From IMG/VR virus record IMGVR_UViG_3300023184_000385, positions 1 to 30,154 of that record: DNA of 30,154 nucleotides; one strand, written 5' to 3'. The position numbers were made by a program, and so were the translations under genes. Positions 13,628 through 30,154 of the stretch are shown here, in pieces. A model generated the notes under the pieces. It worked only from the letters and a program-made list of their open reading frames with translations, did not search any database and had not been told where the DNA came from. Source of the stretch: a virus. How positions within the stretch are numbered: position 1 is the first letter of the stretch; each line of letters opens with the position of its first letter.

Positions 13628-13780
13628 TTAATCTTCAAACTCTTCCTCGAGTTCTTCGAAGAACCTTTCGTACTGTTTACCAAGAATACGAGCCGTGATA
13701 TCATAGTAGATTGCTTCTAGTAGGTAAAATACCGTAATGCCAACAAATGAACTTAACGCCACTTCGAAAAAATTTGACAT
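13628..13780 (-). CDS. Small membrane protein with acidic tail (50 aa)
   Basis: Starts MSNFFEVALSSFVGITVFYL (hydrophobic segment about 5-25) and ends with an acidic stretch near FFEELEEEFED. ATG 13780 is preceded on the minus strand by AAGGAGTACT, an excellent ribosome site, and by a consensus promoter at 13855-13883. An immediate-early inner-membrane protein would fit (for example superinfection exclusion), but this is only inference. Confidence 0.65.
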   Translation of the reverse strand: MSNFFEVALSSFVGITVFYLLEAIYYDITARILGKQYERFFEELEEEFED

Positions 13781-13933: not shown

Positions 13934-14125
13934 ATGTCAATTCAACTAGAAGAATATACACTACCAGAGCATATATCTTACTCTGCGTTCACAACTTACC
14001 TAACATGTGGCTACCAGTACTATCTAGGTAGACTACTCAACAAGCAGGAAGAACCGTCAGTATGGTCTGTCGGAGGAACTGCGTTCCACCTAGCGTGTGA
14101 AAACTACGACAAGGGGACACTATGA
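13934..14125 (+). CDS. RecB/Cas4-like nuclease, N-terminal part
   Basis: 63 residues with the first conserved parts of a Cas4/AddB-type PD-(D/E)XK nuclease: SYSAFTTYLTCGYQYYLGRL, with C25 as the single upstream Fe-S cysteine, and GGTAFHLACE with H52. The protein then stops, and the rest of the nuclease is in a second frame starting at 14122. The mRNA is probably leaderless. Either the enzyme has two subunits, or there is a frameshift. Confidence 0.75.
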   Translation: MSIQLEEYTLPEHISYSAFTTYLTCGYQYYLGRLLNKQEEPSVWSVGGTAFHLACENYDKGTL

Positions 14126-14742
14126 TGCAAGACCCAGCAGTACAACTATGGCAAGAAGCATGGGATGACTCCAAGGGTGATATCGACTTATCCACAGCAC
14201 GTGTGGGCGGTCGGGCAACTAAGGCTAATCCTAACAAAGAAGACCAGAACTTTTGGCAAGCCAAGGGCCCAGAGTGGGTTCAAGCCTATATTGCATGGCG
14301 TGAACATAATAACAACTGGAAGATTTGGGTAGCACCAGATGGCAATCCAGGAATTGAACTAGCCCTAACACCAGTTGTCAGTGGCGTACCAGTTAAGATG
14401 ATTATCGACCGTGTCTTTGAAGTCAATGGGGAACTTGTCATTGTCGATTTAAAAACATCTCAGAACACACCAACCAGCAGTCTACAGTTGGGATTCTACA
14501 AACTTGGACTTGAACAAACGTTCGGCGTTGAGGTAAAGTGGGGAACTTACTACATGTCTCGAGGTAACAATATCTCAGAGATGGTAGACCTATCAGAGTA
14601 CACTTACGACAAGATGCAGTACCTTATAGAAACATTTGACAAAGCAAGACAATCGGGTGTATTCTTGCCCAACACAAACAATTGCCAGTACATGTGTGGA
14701 CTCACACAGTATTGTCAGTTCTCTACGAAGAAGGATAAATAA
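14122..14742 (+). CDS. RecB/Cas4-like nuclease, C-terminal part
   Basis: 206 residues. Catalytic residues are visible: D96 in MIIDRV, D109 and K111 in VIVDLKTS, then a Q-x3-Y helix (Q122, Y126). Three cysteines near the end (C188, C192, C198, spacing C-x3-C-x5-C) fit the downstream part of a 4Fe-4S cluster whose fourth ligand would be C25 of the upstream ORF. Start overlaps the upstream stop as ATGA, indicating coupled translation. Family members are DNA exonucleases used in recombination or end processing. Confidence 0.8.
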   Translation: MMQDPAVQLWQEAWDDSKGDIDLSTARVGGRATKANPNKEDQNFWQAKGPEWVQAYIAWREHNNNWKIWVAPDGNPGIELALTPVVSGVPVKMIIDRVFEVNGELVIVDLKTSQNTPTSSLQLGFYKLGLEQTFGVEVKWGTYYMSRGNNISEMVDLSEYTYDKMQYLIETFDKARQSGVFLPNTNNCQYMCGLTQYCQFSTKKDK

Positions 14743-15200: not shown

Positions 15201-15983
15201 ATGAGAACTCTAGTGCGTTCAGTTGGTAGAGCCTCTATTGGCGGAGAACCCCTACCTAGTTCGTTTAAAGCATTCGAACAGAACAAGATTATCATACGAC
15301 GTTCAGAAGTTTCTATGTTTGCAGGTGCTCCAGGAGCGGGAAAATCTACTCTCGCTCTGGCGCTTGCTCTCAAGACCAATGTGCCAACGCTTTATATATC
15401 TGCGGATACTAATGCACACACAATGGCTATGCGTTTAGCATCCATGATTTCGGGGAAGAGTCAATCTGATGTTGAGCAGAAACTTAATACTGATGTTGGA
15501 TGGACGAAAGCAGTCCTCCAAAAAGGAAACCATATAGTCTGGTCGTTCGAATCATCACCAACCTTAGAAGATATCGATGAGGAAGTTCAAGCGTTTGAGG
15601 AGTTGTGGGGCTGTAGCCCATCTCTCATTGTCTTGGACAACCTCATGGATGTTGCCACCGATGGTGGCGAAGAGTTCGCATCTATGCGAGCAATCATGAA
15701 GGAGTTAAAGTATCTTGCTAGGGCAACTAATGCAGCGATTGTCGTACTACATCACACTTCGGAGGCAGTTCCTGGTAATCCTTGTCAGCCTCGAAGCGCA
15801 ATCCAAGGGAAAGTCTCGCAACTTCCTGCTCTCATATGTACACTTGGCACGGTTGGCACATCAATGGGCGTTGCGTCAGTCAAGAATCGCTATGGCAGAG
15901 CAGACGCGAATGGGAGTCTTATGACTTGGCTAGCATTTAATCCAGAATATATGTACATCGATGACATTCCTGAGAATGTATAA
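15201..15983 (+). CDS. DnaB/RecA-like replicative helicase ATPase
   Basis: 260 residues. Walker A GAPGAGKST (42-50), Walker B SLIVLDNL (141-148), and a segment IVVLHH (180-185) resembling the DnaB/RecA glutamine or sensor region. The length fits a single RecA-type core like the DnaB C-terminal domain or phage RepA, without the DnaB N-terminal domain. Ribosome site AAGGGGTGC. It probably unwinds DNA at the fork with the primase encoded downstream. The stop overlaps the next start by one base. Confidence 0.8.
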   Translation: MRTLVRSVGRASIGGEPLPSSFKAFEQNKIIIRRSEVSMFAGAPGAGKSTLALALALKTNVPTLYISADTNAHTMAMRLASMISGKSQSDVEQKLNTDVGWTKAVLQKGNHIVWSFESSPTLEDIDEEVQAFEELWGCSPSLIVLDNLMDVATDGGEEFASMRAIMKELKYLARATNAAIVVLHHTSEAVPGNPCQPRSAIQGKVSQLPALICTLGTVGTSMGVASVKNRYGRADANGSLMTWLAFNPEYMYIDDIPENV

Positions 15984-16129
15984 TGGAAAAGACATTAGCA
16001 ATACACCTTTTGGAACTGCGTGAAGAGATAGCCAAAGATATTGAACGTCATATGCCACATGGGAACATGTGTGATATTACAATGGTATATACACAAGCGG
16101 TGGCAATAGTACGCGGGAAGTATAAATGA
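15983..16129 (+). CDS. Small hypothetical protein (48 aa)
   Basis: Begins MEKTLAIHLLELREEIAKDI, amphipathic helix, followed by HMPHGNMCDIT. Starts by overlapping the helicase stop (TAATG) and overlaps the next gene as ATGA, so it belongs to the operon. No family recognised. Confidence 0.6.
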   Translation: MEKTLAIHLLELREEIAKDIERHMPHGNMCDITMVYTQAVAIVRGKYK

Positions 16130-16497
16130 CAACTAGAAAATCGCACAAGGCAAGAGGAGCAACATTTGAAACCGACACTAGGGAATTCTTTCGAGGACTT
16201 GGATATGATGCTGAACGACTTGCTAGAACAGGTGCAAAGGATGAAGGCGATGTTGTCGTTAGAGCGGACTTCTTGGGAGCAAACATTGGCATCATTGAAT
16301 GCAAAGCCCCAGGCGCAGGCAACGCTATTTCACTCAGCGGTTGGGCAAAAGAGGCTCAAGTTGAAGCAGCAAATTATTCAGAAGCAAGGGGGCTCGACCG
16401 TAACTCAGTCCTCGCTGCTGTACTTATCAAGGCTAGAGGAAAGTCCATAGCAGATTCCTATTTAGTATTAAGGTTGGGCGATGTATTTAGTGGATGA
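16126..16497 (+). CDS. Hjc-like Holliday-junction resolvase (PD-(D/E)XK)
   Basis: 123 residues. KARGATFETDTREFFR carries the N-terminal Glu (E15), RTGAKDEGDVVV carries the acidic D42, and IIECKAP carries E58 and K60, the classic E...D...E-x-K site of archaeal-type resolvases. Length is typical for Hjc. It probably resolves recombination or replication intermediates before packaging. Overlaps the next ORF by 17 bases. Confidence 0.75.
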   Translation: MTTRKSHKARGATFETDTREFFRGLGYDAERLARTGAKDEGDVVVRADFLGANIGIIECKAPGAGNAISLSGWAKEAQVEAANYSEARGLDRNSVLAAVLIKARGKSIADSYLVLRLGDVFSG

Positions 16498-16855
16498 TTT
16501 GCCAGACATAGTAGCAGTGCTGCGCCATTACGGCGCGACGATAAATCGTATAGGTAGACAAGTTAATATTAAGTGTCCGTTCCATAATGACTCGCACGCT
16601 AGTGCAAGTTTCAATACTCAAGATAATATTTTTAATTGCTTTGCGTGTGGTATGCAAGGCAATAGCATTCAAATAATTGCAAAGCAAGAAAGGTGTGAGA
16701 TTCGTGAAGCAAAGTCAATTGCAGAAGGAATTACTGGGGAGAGCGACGAGCAGGTACGCGGGAAGCATCTCTCTGGCCGAAGATTACCTAGCAAGTCGGG
16801 GAATCACAAGGGAAGTAGCACGTCTGGCGCGATTAGGCGTAGTAGAGGAGCCTGA
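16481..16855 (+). CDS. DNA primase, zinc-binding part (5' frame of split gene)
   Basis: 124 residues in this frame. The first 85 form a DnaG-type CHC2 zinc domain: CPFHND (C32, H35) and CFACG (C53, C56). Past roughly residue 86 (ITGES) the sequence turns into low-quality Arg/Ser-rich text, while the other frame becomes primase-like. The meaningful product is therefore probably the zinc domain joined to the downstream frame by a +1 shift at GGGG (16736-16739). Confidence 0.8.
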   Translation: MYLVDDLPDIVAVLRHYGATINRIGRQVNIKCPFHNDSHASASFNTQDNIFNCFACGMQGNSIQIIAKQERCEIREAKSIAEGITGESDEQVRGKHLSGRRLPSKSGNHKGSSTSGAIRRSRGA

Positions 16856-17339
16856 GACTGGACATGAAGCGTTTGTTGGCCGTCTTTCGATTCCGTACAT
16901 TACTAAAACTGGCATTGTTGATTTACGCTTTCGCTCTCTTAATCCAGCGGTGGAACCGAAGTACATGGGAATGACTGGACAAGAAACAAAGATGTACAAC
17001 GTAACTGATATTGAAAAAGCGGGCGACTGGATTGGAGTATGCGAAGGTGAACTGGATACTATCACTCTTAGTGGTTGCATTGGGATTCCTTGCGTTGGAG
17101 TTCCAGGTGCGAACAGTTGGAAGAAGCACTACACCAGATTACTTGCAGACTTTGAGCGAGTCTTCGTCTTTGCAGACGGCGACCAACCAGGAAAAGAGTT
17201 TGCTAATAGCCTTGCGCGAGAGTTGCCAGTTACAGTCGTGTCGATGCCAGAGGGAGAAGATGTGAACTCAATATTTGTAAAACAGGGTGGGGATTATATC
17301 AAGAATAGAATGGGGTTGAACATTGACGAAGAAGAATAA
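16677..17339 (+). CDS. DNA primase, TOPRIM part (3' frame of split gene)
   Basis: 220 residues from the TTG at 16677; primase-like sequence begins at about residue 22 (RATSRYAGSISLAEDYLASR). The TOPRIM domain shows EGELD (123-127) and ADGD (166-169), the metal-binding residues, with TEL-like strands between. A separate start is possible at GTG 16704 after AAAGG, but a +1 frameshift from the zinc frame is the simpler reading. It would synthesise primers together with the DnaB-like helicase. Confidence 0.8.
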   Translation: MQSKKGVRFVKQSQLQKELLGRATSRYAGSISLAEDYLASRGITREVARLARLGVVEEPETGHEAFVGRLSIPYITKTGIVDLRFRSLNPAVEPKYMGMTGQETKMYNVTDIEKAGDWIGVCEGELDTITLSGCIGIPCVGVPGANSWKKHYTRLLADFERVFVFADGDQPGKEFANSLARELPVTVVSMPEGEDVNSIFVKQGGDYIKNRMGLNIDEEE

Positions 17340-25207: not shown

Positions 25208-25885
25208 TTAGGCTTTAACTGCTTTGGTGTTTTTTTCTACTGTGATGAGTTTTGCAATTACCTTGTGAAGTTTTTCTAGTTCGCTAGTAGTGAGTGTTTT
25301 CAAGTCATTCTGATTAAGGTAGGCATCAACTGCATCAACGATGCTTTCAAGTGTGATTCCCTGTGCTAATTCTTGTACGTCTTGCTCAACTTTGTCACCC
25401 TTTGCGTCTGCCTGTGATTCTGCTTTTGTCTTAGTGTTATCGGATAATTCTTTGAGCGTGTCGTACTTTGCAAGATGAGCCTTCACGCCTGATGCTTTCA
25501 CATCCGCTAGGACACGTCCTGCAAGAGTAAGAATAGCCGACGCGGTAACTTCTGGCAGTTCATTCTCATACTTTGCGATGATTGATGATGCGGTTGAGAT
25601 TGATGGAATGTGCCCATGCTTTACGACGATGCCTACCTTGATTCCTTTGGCAGTATTTTTAAGAGTTGAGATAGCCACTGCCTGAGTTAAACCTGATTGC
25701 ATCTGAGCATCTAGTGACTTAATGAATTCGAGGTTAGCGATGTTTGCATCCTCACCCTTTGAGATTACTTCCATGTACTCATTCTCTAGTGATGAGTTCA
25801 ATTCCACTAGCGGGCTAGTGTTTTTTACTGTGTTTTCTTTTGTCATGTTCTGTCCTTTGTTTGGGTAGTTCGTGGCCTTTGCCAT
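25208..25885 (-). CDS. Origin-proximal protein of unknown function
   Basis: 225 residues from ATG 25885, or 212 from ATG 25846. The first start is 6 bases after TATAAT, giving a leaderless mRNA; the second has the good ribosome site AAAGGACAGAAC. The protein is mainly helical, Lys/Ala/Glu-rich, with a low-complexity middle (about 150-170) and a C-terminal helix pair. It stands alone next to the origin, with its own promoters and a terminator, so it may be an early regulator or an origin-related protein. No helix-turn-helix was recognised. Confidence 0.65.
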   Translation of the reverse strand: MAKATNYPNKGQNMTKENTVKNTSPLVELNSSLENEYMEVISKGEDANIANLEFIKSLDAQMQSGLTQAVAISTLKNTAKGIKVGIVVKHGHIPSISTASSIIAKYENELPEVTASAILTLAGRVLADVKASGVKAHLAKYDTLKELSDNTKTKAESQADAKGDKVEQDVQELAQGITLESIVDAVDAYLNQNDLKTLTTSELEKLHKVIAKLITVEKNTKAVKA

Positions 25886-25891
25886 GTCTTA

Positions 25892-25921
25892 ATTATACTC
25901 ACACCTTTTGAAATATGTCTA
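25892..25921 (-). promoter_or_regulatory. Promoter with probable leaderless start
   Basis: Minus strand TAGACA (25916-25921, 5 of 6 bases), 18-base spacer, TATAAT (25892-25897), then six bases to ATG 25885. Same geometry as the promoter at 13898-13927. Confidence 0.75.
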
Positions 25922-25943
25922 ATCCATTTACCTAATTCGCTCA

Positions 25944-25956
25944 CTATATTATATAG
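25944..25956. promoter_or_regulatory. Palindrome A copy 5
   Basis: ACTATATTATATAG followed by c, so 13 bp of symmetry. It lies between two minus-strand promoters (25892-25921 and 25981-26009) and could control both. Confidence 0.6.
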
Positions 25957-25980
25957 CGACATTCGCGACATATTGGACTT

Positions 25981-26009
25981 ATCATACCATAACGGGGCAA
26001 TAAGGTCAA
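25981..26009 (-). promoter_or_regulatory. Second upstream promoter (minus)
   Basis: Minus strand TTGACC (26004-26009), 17-base spacer, TATGAT (25981-25986). Would transcribe the 25208-25885 gene with a leader of about 90 bases that includes palindrome A. Confidence 0.65.
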
Positions 26010-26037
26010 TTCGGACATTGTGGACATGGGGCATCTA

Positions 26038-26053
26038 TCGAACACCTGTTCGA
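26038..26053. promoter_or_regulatory. LexA/SOS-box-like operator
   Basis: TCGAACACCTGTTCGA is a palindrome with arms TCGAACA/TGTTCGA, matching the known actinobacterial LexA consensus TCGAAC-N4-GTTCGA exactly. It lies 28 bp upstream of the promoter at 25981-26009 and 38 bp from the first DnaA box. Confidence 0.7.
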
Positions 26054-26067
26054 AAAGTTTGTGTCGG

Positions 26068-26081
26068 CGACACGCCCGACC
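26068..26081. repeat. Inverted-repeat arm
   Basis: CGACACGCCCGACC, reverse complement of 25129-25142. Overlaps the small palindrome GTGTCGGCGACAC (26061-26073). Confidence 0.5.
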
Positions 26082-26091
26082 TCGTTGTGGA

Positions 26092-26525
26092 CTATCCACA
26101 GGTTATCCACATAGTTATCCACAGCCCCATAGTTATCCACAGGGCAGAGAGTCATCTGCCGAATAATCATTATTATGTAAAGTTAGAATCTGGAATAGCC
26201 TCGTCTCATCTAGTGAGATAGGCGTATCAATATATGGACAAGATAATGATTGCCAGATAATTGTTATTATGTAAAGTTGGTTTGACCCTAGGGTTATTAA
26301 AAAACCGAGGGACTTGCTCTTATAGTATCAACCAATAATTTTCTGTTATATTACGGGGCTATATATAGAGAAATACGACTGTCAAAAAATATATTACCGA
26401 ACTATGTTCGGAAACACCTGTTTGAACAGGTTATCTATAGTATATAAATAATATATACGGAGTCGCTCCGTTTAAGACTCCGCTCCTCCTATAGTATATA
26501 ATATATAGTTATATATATTAATAAT
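26092..26525. other. Probable replication origin
   Basis: Four DnaA boxes: CTATCCACA (26092), then TTATCCACA at 26103, 26115 and 26133, all in one orientation. Two 30-bp repeats follow (26157, 26251), then a long AT-rich stretch to about 26525 that could unwind, with small inverted repeats (ACCTGTT/AACAGGT at 26416-26431; ACGGAG/CTCCGT at 26457-26471). The order boxes, repeats, AT-rich DNA is typical of bacterial and plasmid origins. I see no gene in 25886-26581. Confidence 0.75.
26157..26280 (+). repeat. Pair of 30-bp direct repeats (iteron-like)
   Basis: Copies at 26157-26186 and 26251-26280, 25 of 30 bases identical, 94 bp apart, both containing TTATTATGTAAAGTT. Near the DnaA boxes, they may bind an initiator or regulator. 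Confidence 0.6.
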
Positions 26526-26581
26526 GGGATAGTTATGCCCGTTTAATCCAACCGTTAAATAGGCGTTTTAAGGGGACAATA

Positions 26582-28450
26582 ATGGGACGCAAGCCAGGGG
26601 TACAATCTGTACCTAAAGAGGAAGCCCAGGCTAAAGTACTAACCCTACTTGAAAATGGAGCAACCATCACAGCCGCTATGGCGGCAGTCGGAAGACAAGA
26701 TACAGCCTTTCGTCAGTGGGTTATGGTAGATGAAAATTTTAAAGAAAAAGCCGATAAAGCCCGCCTAGCGGGTAAAGGCGTAAAAGTAGATTTAGCAGAA
26801 CTTAAAGATATATCCTATCCTGAGTTCTCAAAGCAGTTTTTAGATACTACCCTTTTTGAACACCAACTCAACTGGCTTGACCTTATTGAAGGTCGTGAGC
26901 CATCGTGGCAACCTACTGGTATGACATATGAGCCTGGAGACCCTAAGCGCATTCTTATCAATGTGCCTCCTGAGCATGCTAAGTCAACTACCATCACCAC
27001 CAACTATACTCTTTACACTATTGTAACCAACCCTAATGCTAGAGTCATTATTGTCTCTAAAACCCAGGGTATGGCACGCAAGTTCCTTGGTGCTATTAAA
27101 ACAAGACTTAGCCACCCAGCCTACATGAAACTACAGACGGCCTTTGGCCCTAATGGTGGTTATAAAGCAGATGCAACCCAATGGTCTGCTGATATGATAT
27201 ATCTAGGTACGGGCCGCGACTCTGGCGAGAAAGACCCGACTGTACAGGCTTTGGGTTTCGGTTCCCAGATTTACGGAGCACGTGCAGATTTAATCATCCT
27301 AGACGATGTTGTGATGAACTCAAATGCCCATGAGTGGGAGAAGCAAATTGAATGGCTTCAAAAAGAAGTTATCACACGTCTGGGACGGCACGGAAAACTG
27401 CTGATAGTAGGAACCCGTGTCGCTCCCATAGATTTGTACAAAATGATACGCTCTGGCGACCAATGGACTGGCGGAAAGACTCCCTTTACCTATTGTGCCA
27501 TGCCAGCAGTTCTACAGTTTGATGAAGACCCAAAGAACTGGAAAACTTTATGGCCTAAGACCAATATTCAGGAGAATGATTTAGATGAGCAATTCGAGGA
27601 TGGACTCTACCCCAAGTGGGATGGACCTTCTCTCTTTAAGCGTCGCTCTGAGGTCGCTCCGTCGGTATGGGCTATGGTCTACCAGCAAGAAGACGTTGTC
27701 GAAAACTCCATCTTCTCACCAGCCTGTGTTGCAGGTTCTGTCAATGGAATGCGAAAACGAGGCCCTTTAAAGGCTGGCGTTCCTGGACACCCCAAAAACA
27801 CCGATTCTCTCTTTACGGTTATCGGTCTTGACCCAGCCATGTCTGGTGCTACGGGTGCAGTTGTTCTTTCTTACAATCGTGCCGATTCAAAGATTTATAT
27901 CTTAGATTGCGTCAATATGACGGATACCACACCTCAAAGGATTCAAAACCTTATTGAAGAGTGGGTTATCAAGTACAAACCGCAAGAACTGCGTATTGAA
28001 ATCAACGCTCACCAAAAGGCTTACGCCTTGGATGAGCATTTAAGGACCTTCTTAGCCCAACATGGTTGTCAACTCAACCCCCATTTTACGGGCAAGAACA
28101 AGTGGGACGTGGGATTCGGTGTTGCATCGATGTCTAACCTATTTGGTTCAATGCGAGATGGACGCTTCCAAGATAACAACTTAATTGAATTACCTTCTAA
28201 CGAAGGTTCAGAAGGACTAAAGACACTGGTGCAGGAACTTATTACCTGGAAACCAGATACAAGAAACCCAACTGACTGCGTGATGGCCTTATGGTTTGCC
28301 ATCATTCGCGTACGTGAGTTAATGCAGCAATCAAGCAATTCAAAACAGTATGCAAGCAATAGATGGTCTACTAGGGCACAACATGCTAAGAGACTATCTT
28401 TAAATTTAGATGAAGCCTTTGCAGAGCAATGGGTTGAACAATACGGATAG
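26582..28450 (+). CDS. terL: Terminase large subunit with N-terminal HTH
   Basis: 622 residues. The first 65 residues form a helix-turn-helix-like domain (ENGATITAAMAAVGRQDTAF) like small terminase subunits. The ATPase follows with NVPPEHAKST (Walker A, about 126-136) and LIILDD (Walker B, about 236-241). The nuclease shows VIGLDPAMSG (about 413-420), IEIN (about 471) and NPTDCVMALW with the last Asp near 564. It pumps phage DNA into the procapsid and cuts it. ATG 26582 follows AAGGGGACAATA. No separate small subunit was found in the window. Confidence 0.9.
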   Translation: MGRKPGVQSVPKEEAQAKVLTLLENGATITAAMAAVGRQDTAFRQWVMVDENFKEKADKARLAGKGVKVDLAELKDISYPEFSKQFLDTTLFEHQLNWLDLIEGREPSWQPTGMTYEPGDPKRILINVPPEHAKSTTITTNYTLYTIVTNPNARVIIVSKTQGMARKFLGAIKTRLSHPAYMKLQTAFGPNGGYKADATQWSADMIYLGTGRDSGEKDPTVQALGFGSQIYGARADLIILDDVVMNSNAHEWEKQIEWLQKEVITRLGRHGKLLIVGTRVAPIDLYKMIRSGDQWTGGKTPFTYCAMPAVLQFDEDPKNWKTLWPKTNIQENDLDEQFEDGLYPKWDGPSLFKRRSEVAPSVWAMVYQQEDVVENSIFSPACVAGSVNGMRKRGPLKAGVPGHPKNTDSLFTVIGLDPAMSGATGAVVLSYNRADSKIYILDCVNMTDTTPQRIQNLIEEWVIKYKPQELRIEINAHQKAYALDEHLRTFLAQHGCQLNPHFTGKNKWDVGFGVASMSNLFGSMRDGRFQDNNLIELPSNEGSEGLKTLVQELITWKPDTRNPTDCVMALWFAIIRVRELMQQSSNSKQYASNRWSTRAQHAKRLSLNLDEAFAEQWVEQYG

Positions 28451-28457
28451 GATGACA

Positions 28458-30154
28458 ATGGCATTAACAATGGAACAGATTGCGGCGCGAGTTGCTTCGT
28501 TGCGCTATCGCAATCATGAACGTGATGCTCGTAACCTTGACGTTCTTGCTGTTCGTAAGGGAAAGATTGCAGAAGTCTATCCTAATTTCTTCCCAGATGG
28601 TGTTGATGCTAACGTAGTAGCCAACTTTATTGACATTGTCGCACGCGACTTGTCAGAAGTTATGGCTCCGCTTCCAGCGGTTAACTGTTCAGCGGCCAAC
28701 CAAGTAAGTGACCGTGCACGCCAGTTTGCTGATAAGCGAACACGCATTGCATCTAACTACTTTGCACACTCAGATTTAGCAGTTAACATGTACTCAGGTG
28801 CCGATTGGTACCTAACCTACGGTTTCGTCCCATTCGTAATTGAATTGGATGACGAAAGCAAGTTGCCACGTATCCGCATAGAAAATCCAATTGGGGCTTA
28901 CCCAGAATTTGACCGCTATGGACGTTGCGTTGCTTTTGCTAAACGATATATGATGACACTAGGCGAACTATGTGCTCAATTCCCAGAGTATGACACAGTC
29001 CTTCTCGGGTCTATGGGTTACAAGCAAGACCTAAATCATCAAATTGAATTGATTCGCTACTACGACAAAGACCAATCAGTTATCTATATCCCTTCAAAGA
29101 AGGATTTAGTCCTATCAAAGGCTAAGAATCCTCTAGGGAAAATGATGATTGTTGTTGCACGTAAGCCATCTATCGATGGCGAACTACGCGGACAGTTTGA
29201 TGATGTACTTGGTATTCAATTACTGCGCAACCGTTTTGCATTACTTGCAATGGAAGCCGCAGAAAAAAGCGTACAAGCACCAATCGTCCTTCCTCAGGAC
29301 GTGCAAGAACTCCAGTTGGGTGGCGATGCAGTTATTCGCACATCCAATCCTGCTGGTGTTCGCCGCGTAGAACTGACACTCCCCCAGGGAGCATTTACAG
29401 AGCAGAATCTGCTTAATCAAGAACTACGTGTTGGTGCTCGTTACCCAGAAGGACGTACTGGAAACGTTAATGCATCAATTGTAACTGGTCAAGGTGTACA
29501 AGCACTCATGGGTGCCTTCGATACACAGGTAAAATCAGCACAGGCAATCTTTGCAGCAGCACTTCGCGATGTTATTAACATCTGTTTTGAAGTTGATGAG
29601 AAGATTTTCCCAGCAGAAAAGACAATTCGTGGAGTCGATTCAGGCTCTCCATACGAAGTAACATACAAACCATCAAAGGATATCAAGGCTGACTACTCCG
29701 CCGATGTCCGTTATGGCATGTTGGCTGGTCTTAATCCAGCACAGGGACTTATTTTCATGCTACAAGCATTAGGCGGCGGCCTTATCTCTAAGGATATGGC
29801 CATGCGCGAGTTACCATTTACGGTAAACGTATCGCAAGAACTTGAAAAGATTGAAATTGAGAAGATGCGTGATGCACTTCTTGGTTCCCTCACCGCATAT
29901 ACACAGGCAATTCCACAGATGGCAGCATCTGGTGGAGACCCAAGTGCAGTCGTGCGCAAGATTGCAGACGTTATTAAGGCTCGCCAAAAGGGACAGGCAC
30001 TTGAAGATGCAATTGAAGCAACATTTGCTCCAGAGCAACAAGTTCCTCCTGCTGGGGTTCCATCGGTTGAGCAACCGTCCCCTGTTCCCCCTGGTTCTCC
30101 AGTAGGAGGCTCTCCAGAAGGCGCACAAGGCCCAGGACAAGCACCAATGGCACC
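28458..30154 (+). CDS. Portal protein (3' end missing)
   Basis: 565 codons, open to the right edge. An N-terminal region with LRYRNHERDARNLDVL is followed by GADWYLTYGFVPFVIELDD, a stem-like region, and a helical core (LLRNRFALLAMEAAEKS). The C-terminal part is Pro/Gly/Gln-rich. The family forms the dodecameric ring through which DNA enters and which binds the neck. It lies 7 bases after the terminase. If the ends join directly, six codons of new sequence would lead to a stop. Confidence 0.85.
   Translation, partial: MALTMEQIAARVASLRYRNHERDARNLDVLAVRKGKIAEVYPNFFPDGVDANVVANFIDIVARDLSEVMAPLPAVNCSAANQVSDRARQFADKRTRIASNYFAHSDLAVNMYSGADWYLTYGFVPFVIELDDESKLPRIRIENPIGAYPEFDRYGRCVAFAKRYMMTLGELCAQFPEYDTVLLGSMGYKQDLNHQIELIRYYDKDQSVIYIPSKKDLVLSKAKNPLGKMMIVVARKPSIDGELRGQFDDVLGIQLLRNRFALLAMEAAEKSVQAPIVLPQDVQELQLGGDAVIRTSNPAGVRRVELTLPQGAFTEQNLLNQELRVGARYPEGRTGNVNASIVTGQGVQALMGAFDTQVKSAQAIFAAALRDVINICFEVDEKIFPAEKTIRGVDSGSPYEVTYKPSKDIKADYSADVRYGMLAGLNPAQGLIFMLQALGGGLISKDMAMRELPFTVNVSQELEKIEIEKMRDALLGSLTAYTQAIPQMAASGGDPSAVVRKIADVIKARQKGQALEDAIEATFAPEQQVPPAGVPSVEQPSPVPPGSPVGGSPEGAQGPGQAPMA

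Follow-up and report, generated by a model that had tools for sequence, protein, structure and literature searches.

The window, that is, the whole stretch of 30,154 bases analysed here, is an IMG/VR virus record without end repeats that is placed in the linear class of that database. It is regarded as incomplete, covering about 30 of some 39 kb, because near-complete relatives measure 38-42 kb, the portal ORF is truncated at the right end and the portal-to-capsid genes are missing. The genes found between portal and capsid in relatives are absent at window 30152 / 1; among them is one for a protein of 1,100-1,800 aa, of which relatives carry alternative, seemingly unrelated versions. On the plus strand the window encodes a PD-(D/E)XK exonuclease (14122..14742), the ATPase domain alone of a DnaB-like helicase (15201..15983), a RusA-like Holliday junction resolvase (16126..16497) and a split DnaG-type primase (16481..17339; CHC2 zinc ribbon at 16481-16855, Toprim at 16677-17339). 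These helicase, RusA and primase genes, together with WhiB and sigma factor genes, the terminase large subunit (TerL) and the close relatives of the latter, identify the window as a Planktophila-type actinophage; its TerL matches at 78% those of the isolates LanE43-AprE7 (E7) and AprF5 (F5) (OX376640, OX376641), which lyse 'Ca. Planktophila' (PMC10202952). The host is probably a small freshwater actinobacterium, and a TerL search in the genome collection for the host returned no match. The initial annotation had described a phage with a helicase and a primase but no visible DNA polymerase or initiator gene, and this holds for the annotated proteins of the window and for the 43 proteins of E7 scanned with Pfam and NCBIfam, a diverged polymerase or initiator being possible in either.

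The region of interest is the gap between a leftward operon and terL. The first leftward gene (25208..25885, minus strand) encodes a fast-evolving, predicted all-helical protein (mean pLDDT 84) for which no convincing Pfam, PHROGs or PDB fold match was found, and whose fast-diverging family comprises 39 loci linked by blastp. On the other side, terL (26582..28450, plus strand) is followed by the portal gene (28410..30152, plus strand), which runs past the window end and was assigned from its position and from relatives; by eye, the TerL N-terminus (26582-26780) resembles a helix-turn-helix, and terL has no obvious gene for a separate small terminase next to it. The gap itself comprises a hypervariable slot (25886..26260), which carries host-type operators in relatives, and a conserved part or terL leader (26261..26581, plus strand) with the promoter-like motif TCTGTTATATT and the hairpins CCGAACNNNGTTCGG, ACCTGTTTGAACAGGT and ACGGAGTCGCTCCGT. 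This conserved part is possibly a structured leader or a late promoter; a search for known RNA elements gave no Rfam match.

Within the slot, four DnaA boxes follow one another on the plus strand: one with a single mismatch, CTATCCACA (26092..26100), and three exact copies of TTATCCACA (26103..26111, 26115..26123 and 26133..26141), so that the three perfect boxes and one near-match in one orientation reported by the initial annotation are confirmed at 26092-26141. The array is trailed by the window version of a GGRGATAGTC-like anchor (26142..26153, plus strand), recognised by eye, which in relatives trails the variable array. The repeats noted beyond the boxes are also present, not as 30-bp units but as two plus-strand copies of 28 nt that are 86% alike (26157..26184, containing AATAATCATTATT, and 26251..26278), and the DNA after the boxes is AT-rich as described, with 65% AT at 26142-26283 and 72% at 26438-26535; the highest AT content of any 60-mer in the window is reached at 13760, away from the array. 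Two further elements had escaped the initial annotation. One is a putative sigma70-type promoter reading leftward (TTGACC-17-TATGAT with a TG extension, 25981..26009, minus strand), recognised by consensus match. The other is an SOS/LexA operator, the perfect 16-bp palindrome TCGAACACCTGTTCGA (26038..26053), which conforms to the actinobacterial SOS operator TCGAACNNNNGTTCGA; within the host group, recA and lexA are preceded by the same box, the recA copy matching the inner CGAACNNNNGTTCG. The distance upstream of the leftward -35 element is about 30 bp for the LexA box and about 85 bp for the DnaA array, which is an unusual position for a repressor.

Single DnaA boxes with at most one mismatch are no more frequent in the whole window than expected by chance (9 versus 9.05), and the significance is therefore confined to their clustering: when the window was simulated 60 times with a Markov model, three or more boxes within 60 bp never arose (0/60), which rules out a chance origin of the array. 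The start-to-start spacings of 11, 12 and 18 are helically phased, as in other viral arrays, whose spacings peak at 11-12 and 21-22; these peaks are not produced by the search pattern, since it admitted spacings of 10-25 and 10-29. Arrays of three exact DnaA boxes were found in at least 120 viral contigs. DnaA arrays also occur in T7-like, T5-like and other lytic phages, such as Arthrobacter phage Seahorse and Microbacterium phage RubyRalph, and the earlier view that a DnaA cluster is unusual for a lytic tailed phage was thus mistaken. Among the T7-like phages, Escherichia phage P483 (L210, 2929-3050) has five exact boxes and Klebsiella phage VLCpiA2a (L207, 2447-2550) has four, in both cases in a long non-coding region; P483 has genes for a DNA polymerase and a primase-helicase of its own. 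In the 80 array-bearing viral loci listed, simple regular expressions found no dnaA or polymerase genes.

The relatives of the window were taken as 80 loci found via TerL, plus E7, F5 and L098. In these, about 330 bp before terL are conserved and the DNA further upstream is hypervariable. Of the 66 scorable loci, 13 have a DnaA array in the slot, with boxes facing one way, the other way or both, and the other 53 have none. The sisters L013 and L015 are near-identical over the last 250 bp before terL, and have DnaA boxes in one case versus TCTCAGG repeats in the other; the slot contents of L098 and L009 differ too. In L015, L006 and L020 the TCTCAGG repeats, spaced by about 11 bp, replace the DnaA array or stand beside it, and no counterpart of the TCTCAGG array was found in G076, the host-like genome described below. 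E7 and F5, Planktophila phages of the same virus group and with the same core gene set as the window, have no DnaA cluster in their whole genomes, and CRP-like and TTGTCGACAA palindromes are found in their slot instead. The core replication genes are present with or without an array. In ten relatives the helicase could be matched over its full length, at 97-98% identity in nine and at 80% in the tenth. When the slot was defined as -800 to -300 in 55 loci and compared with the rest of the loci, the DnaA box was enriched 168-fold, the LexA box 256-fold and GTTGAANNTTCAAC 121-fold, and reversed controls gave none in the slot for all motifs except a low-complexity ATTTATT repeat. The TTGTCGACAA palindrome, present in the slots of 14 related loci, was 202-fold enriched there. 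The DnaA, LexA and CRP motifs were taken from prior knowledge; the other palindromes were picked after the slots had been viewed, and their enrichment is therefore partly circular. The sites are concentrated in the intergenic gap, as in the gap regions of phages with CtrA sites.

To avoid this circular choice of motifs, slot-wide blastn was run against G076, a complete-looking Actinomycetes genome of 1.35 Mb of which the first 1.34 Mb were used; the blastn tests alone are free of after-the-fact motif choice. Host-like genomes were selected by their size, 1.2-1.4 Mb, and by the presence of two exact LexA boxes, and on the basis of class, size, G+C of 42-49% and operator matches we infer that they belong to the Nanopelagicales. 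With 55 slots as queries, 48 of 68 hits in G076 were intergenic, intergenic DNA making up 5% of the genome, compared with 2/20 for reversed slots, 0/16 for block-shuffled slots, 3/18 for the conserved part of the gap and 1/26 for terL coding pieces. These hits fell in oriC, to either side of dnaA, in the SOS promoters of lexA and of a DUF6504 gene, and at GTTGAANNTTCAAC in three places, one of which precedes a MarR gene; masking the DnaA, LexA and GTTGAA sites lowered the intergenic share to 10 of 29. The window's own gap aligned best with host-like oriC (up to 90% identity over 30 bp), the lexA, recA and DUF6504 promoters being among the top hits. The idea that the array is a copied segment of host oriC was rejected, as the likeness is limited to about 30 bp round the boxes. 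The pair of CTATCCACA and TTATCCACA at 12-bp spacing also occurs upstream of dnaA in G076, and the SOS box type of the window upstream of recA, lexA and the DUF6504 gene. The slot sites match functional-looking sites of the presumed host taxon, and the boxes are supported as host-type DnaA boxes by the oriC alignment of the gap and by their phased spacing. A perfect DnaA-trio run, TACTACTACTAC, lies beside TATATA in G076 (204330-204345) and in the dnaA-dnaN gap of G039 and G058.

Exact DnaA boxes are few in host-like genomes, at 5-17 per genome. In the 1.34 Mb of G076 there are five, all intergenic: two upstream of dnaA and the others in the gaps before dnaX, before pnp and beside a class II ribonucleotide reductase. 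The double-box 23-mer was uninformative, being present in 40 scattered taxa with a dnaA motif nearby in only six. Among the phage-derived palindromes, AGTTGAANNTTCAACT, with the core GTTGAANNTTCAAC, is found in 2-4 copies in nine of 148 sampled Actinomycetes genomes (eight of 1.3-1.4 Mb and one of 2.2 Mb), in single copy in four and not at all in 135. One copy of GTTACTNNNNAGTAAC in three of 12 host-like genomes is suggestive only. For TTGTCGACAA, GTCGGGNNNNCCCGAC, ATCCTATAGGAT and TCTCANNNNNTGAGA no intergenic or above-control sites were seen in the host-like genomes tested; G076 has no intergenic copy of TTGTCGACAA, and TCTCANNNNNTGAGA was rejected as a host operator as it did not exceed the control.

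On balance we lean towards reading the array as a docking site for host DnaA within a hypervariable control strip, which may serve regulation, titration or both. The strip, flanked by a leftward operon of early type and by the terL operon running rightward, would gather sites for host DNA-binding proteins, and these would differ by relative, being those of DnaA, LexA or a MarR-type regulator. Host DnaA and LexA would most likely bind the strip during infection, and once bound they would make the divergent phage promoters responsive to how far the cell is engaged in replication or suffering DNA damage; as the phage copy number rises, the array could also titrate DnaA from the few perfect chromosomal boxes. 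With 5-17 exact boxes per host-like genome, a four-box array on a multiplying phage could both sense and titrate DnaA. The presence of an array in P483, which has its own polymerase, was counted in favour of the control strip, and precedent is offered by the phages with CtrA sites (PMC9437464) and by the E. coli uvrB gene, which is jointly repressed by DnaA and LexA (PMC6015884). Against the control strip, each phage has few sites to act as a titration sponge, neither the LexA box nor the array is at the usual position of a repressor relative to the leftward promoter, several enriched palindromes are without host-like counterparts, and the intergenic share of the blastn hits drops once the DnaA, LexA and GTTGAA sites are masked.

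Taken more broadly, the aquatic actinophage lineage may possess a dedicated, fast-turning slot that captures host control sites (oriC/DnaA, SOS/LexA and MarR regulon) as interchangeable decoys or as sensors of the state of the host, a generalisation that we advance tentatively. That host-type control sites are exchanged at a single slot is a more interesting finding than the origin reading considered below. It points to phages of some of the smallest free-living bacteria sensing or sequestering a number of host regulators via DNA alone, and to a quick exchange of regulator sites between close phage relatives. Phage slots may also offer a practical route to host operators and to host assignment, AGTTGAANNTTCAACT being nearly confined to a single group of small actinobacterial genomes.

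A purer form of the titration idea is that the strip is nothing but a decoy that sequesters DnaA, or LexA or the MarR regulator in relatives, so that host initiation is silenced or host genes are derepressed. We hold this to be rather doubtful as a full account, and since it overlaps with the titration half of the control-strip explanation, the confidences placed in the two are not meant to add up to one. Tens of phage copies would outnumber the exact boxes of a host-like genome, which in G076 are all intergenic, the type of site varies among relatives, and the arrays of T7-like and T5-like phages lie near genome ends or in early regions, all of which would suit a decoy; the sites per genome are few, however, and the window has a single LexA box.

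The initial annotation had proposed an origin built from host DnaA boxes; on such a reading, host DnaA would bind the array, open the AT-rich DNA and recruit the helicase and host polymerase III. Part of this proposal stands: the boxes are of host type, four of them form a phased cluster beside AT-rich DNA in a large gap between divergent operons, a phage polymerase or initiator was not found in the window or in E7, and the best alignment of the gap is to host-like oriC. The cumulative GC-skew minimum, which lies 0.5-4.9 kb from terL in relatives, also speaks for it; but the skew is confounded with gene direction, which it tracks, the maximum, at 32-35 kb, does not face the minimum, and the pattern looks the same with or without an array. 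The part that is not supported is a dedicated origin. Among relatives sharing the same replication genes the array is kept in only 13 of 66 scorable loci, near-identical sisters having swapped it, and one is also borne by the T7-like P483, which encodes a DNA polymerase. No DnaA-trio was found near any of the 13 arrays, where the best match had 4-5 mismatches and was no better than in shuffles, yet the trio is perfect in host-like oriC, the kind of origin used for comparison. We therefore consider the DnaA-dependent origin, and a dedicated one in particular, unlikely, and the strip appears not to be an essential origin; an auxiliary origin role for the array is compatible with these observations. 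A DnaA-box cluster in a phage is by itself no proof of an origin.

It has been described that the injection-stop region of phage T5 consists of repeats, palindromes and DnaA boxes (PMC13250531), and these ingredients, shared by T5-like phages, together with the location of the array region next to terL, raise the alternative of a comparable DNA-entry pause or a packaging signal; this is improbable, since no two-step entry is known in this family, the elements are not conserved, and it is the conserved rather than the variable part of the gap that adjoins terL. Least credible of all is that the repeats are operators of a fast-evolving phage protein, perhaps the strongly diverging product of 25208-25885 encoded beside the slot, with the host likeness being secondary, for the predicted all-helical fold of that protein matches nothing and the matches to host oriC, SOS and MarR sites would be left unexplained.

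Several known systems resemble the control strip in part. Bacterial oriC and the origins of plasmids and of the phage P1 type have phased DnaA boxes beside AT-rich DNA, as the window does; unlike these, the window array has no DnaA-trio, is not conserved, and a Rep gene was not found. In P483, VLCpiA2a, Seahorse and RubyRalph the boxes lie, as in the window, in a non-coding stretch, which in those phages belongs to the end or early region, the P483 array being located between terL and the leading genes, although P483, unlike the window phage, has its own polymerase and primase-helicase. The T5 injection-stop region and the left terminal repeat of T5-like phages also show that a lytic tailed phage can combine DnaA boxes with repeats and palindromes; T5 is nevertheless an unrelated phage, and the sites of the window are exchanged between relatives. 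A further likeness is to the CtrA 'lytic deferment' phages of Alphaproteobacteria. In these virulent phages, CtrA binds to its sites in intergenic gaps and terminal repeats, through which phage genes are regulated, and DnaA sites showed no positional asymmetry in the phages of that study (PMC9437464). Host-regulator sites are concentrated in gaps or terminal repeats and are gained and lost between relatives, as they are here; whereas binding is proven for the CtrA phages, in the window actinophage and its relatives it is predicted DnaA, LexA and MarR-type sites that are exchanged at one slot.
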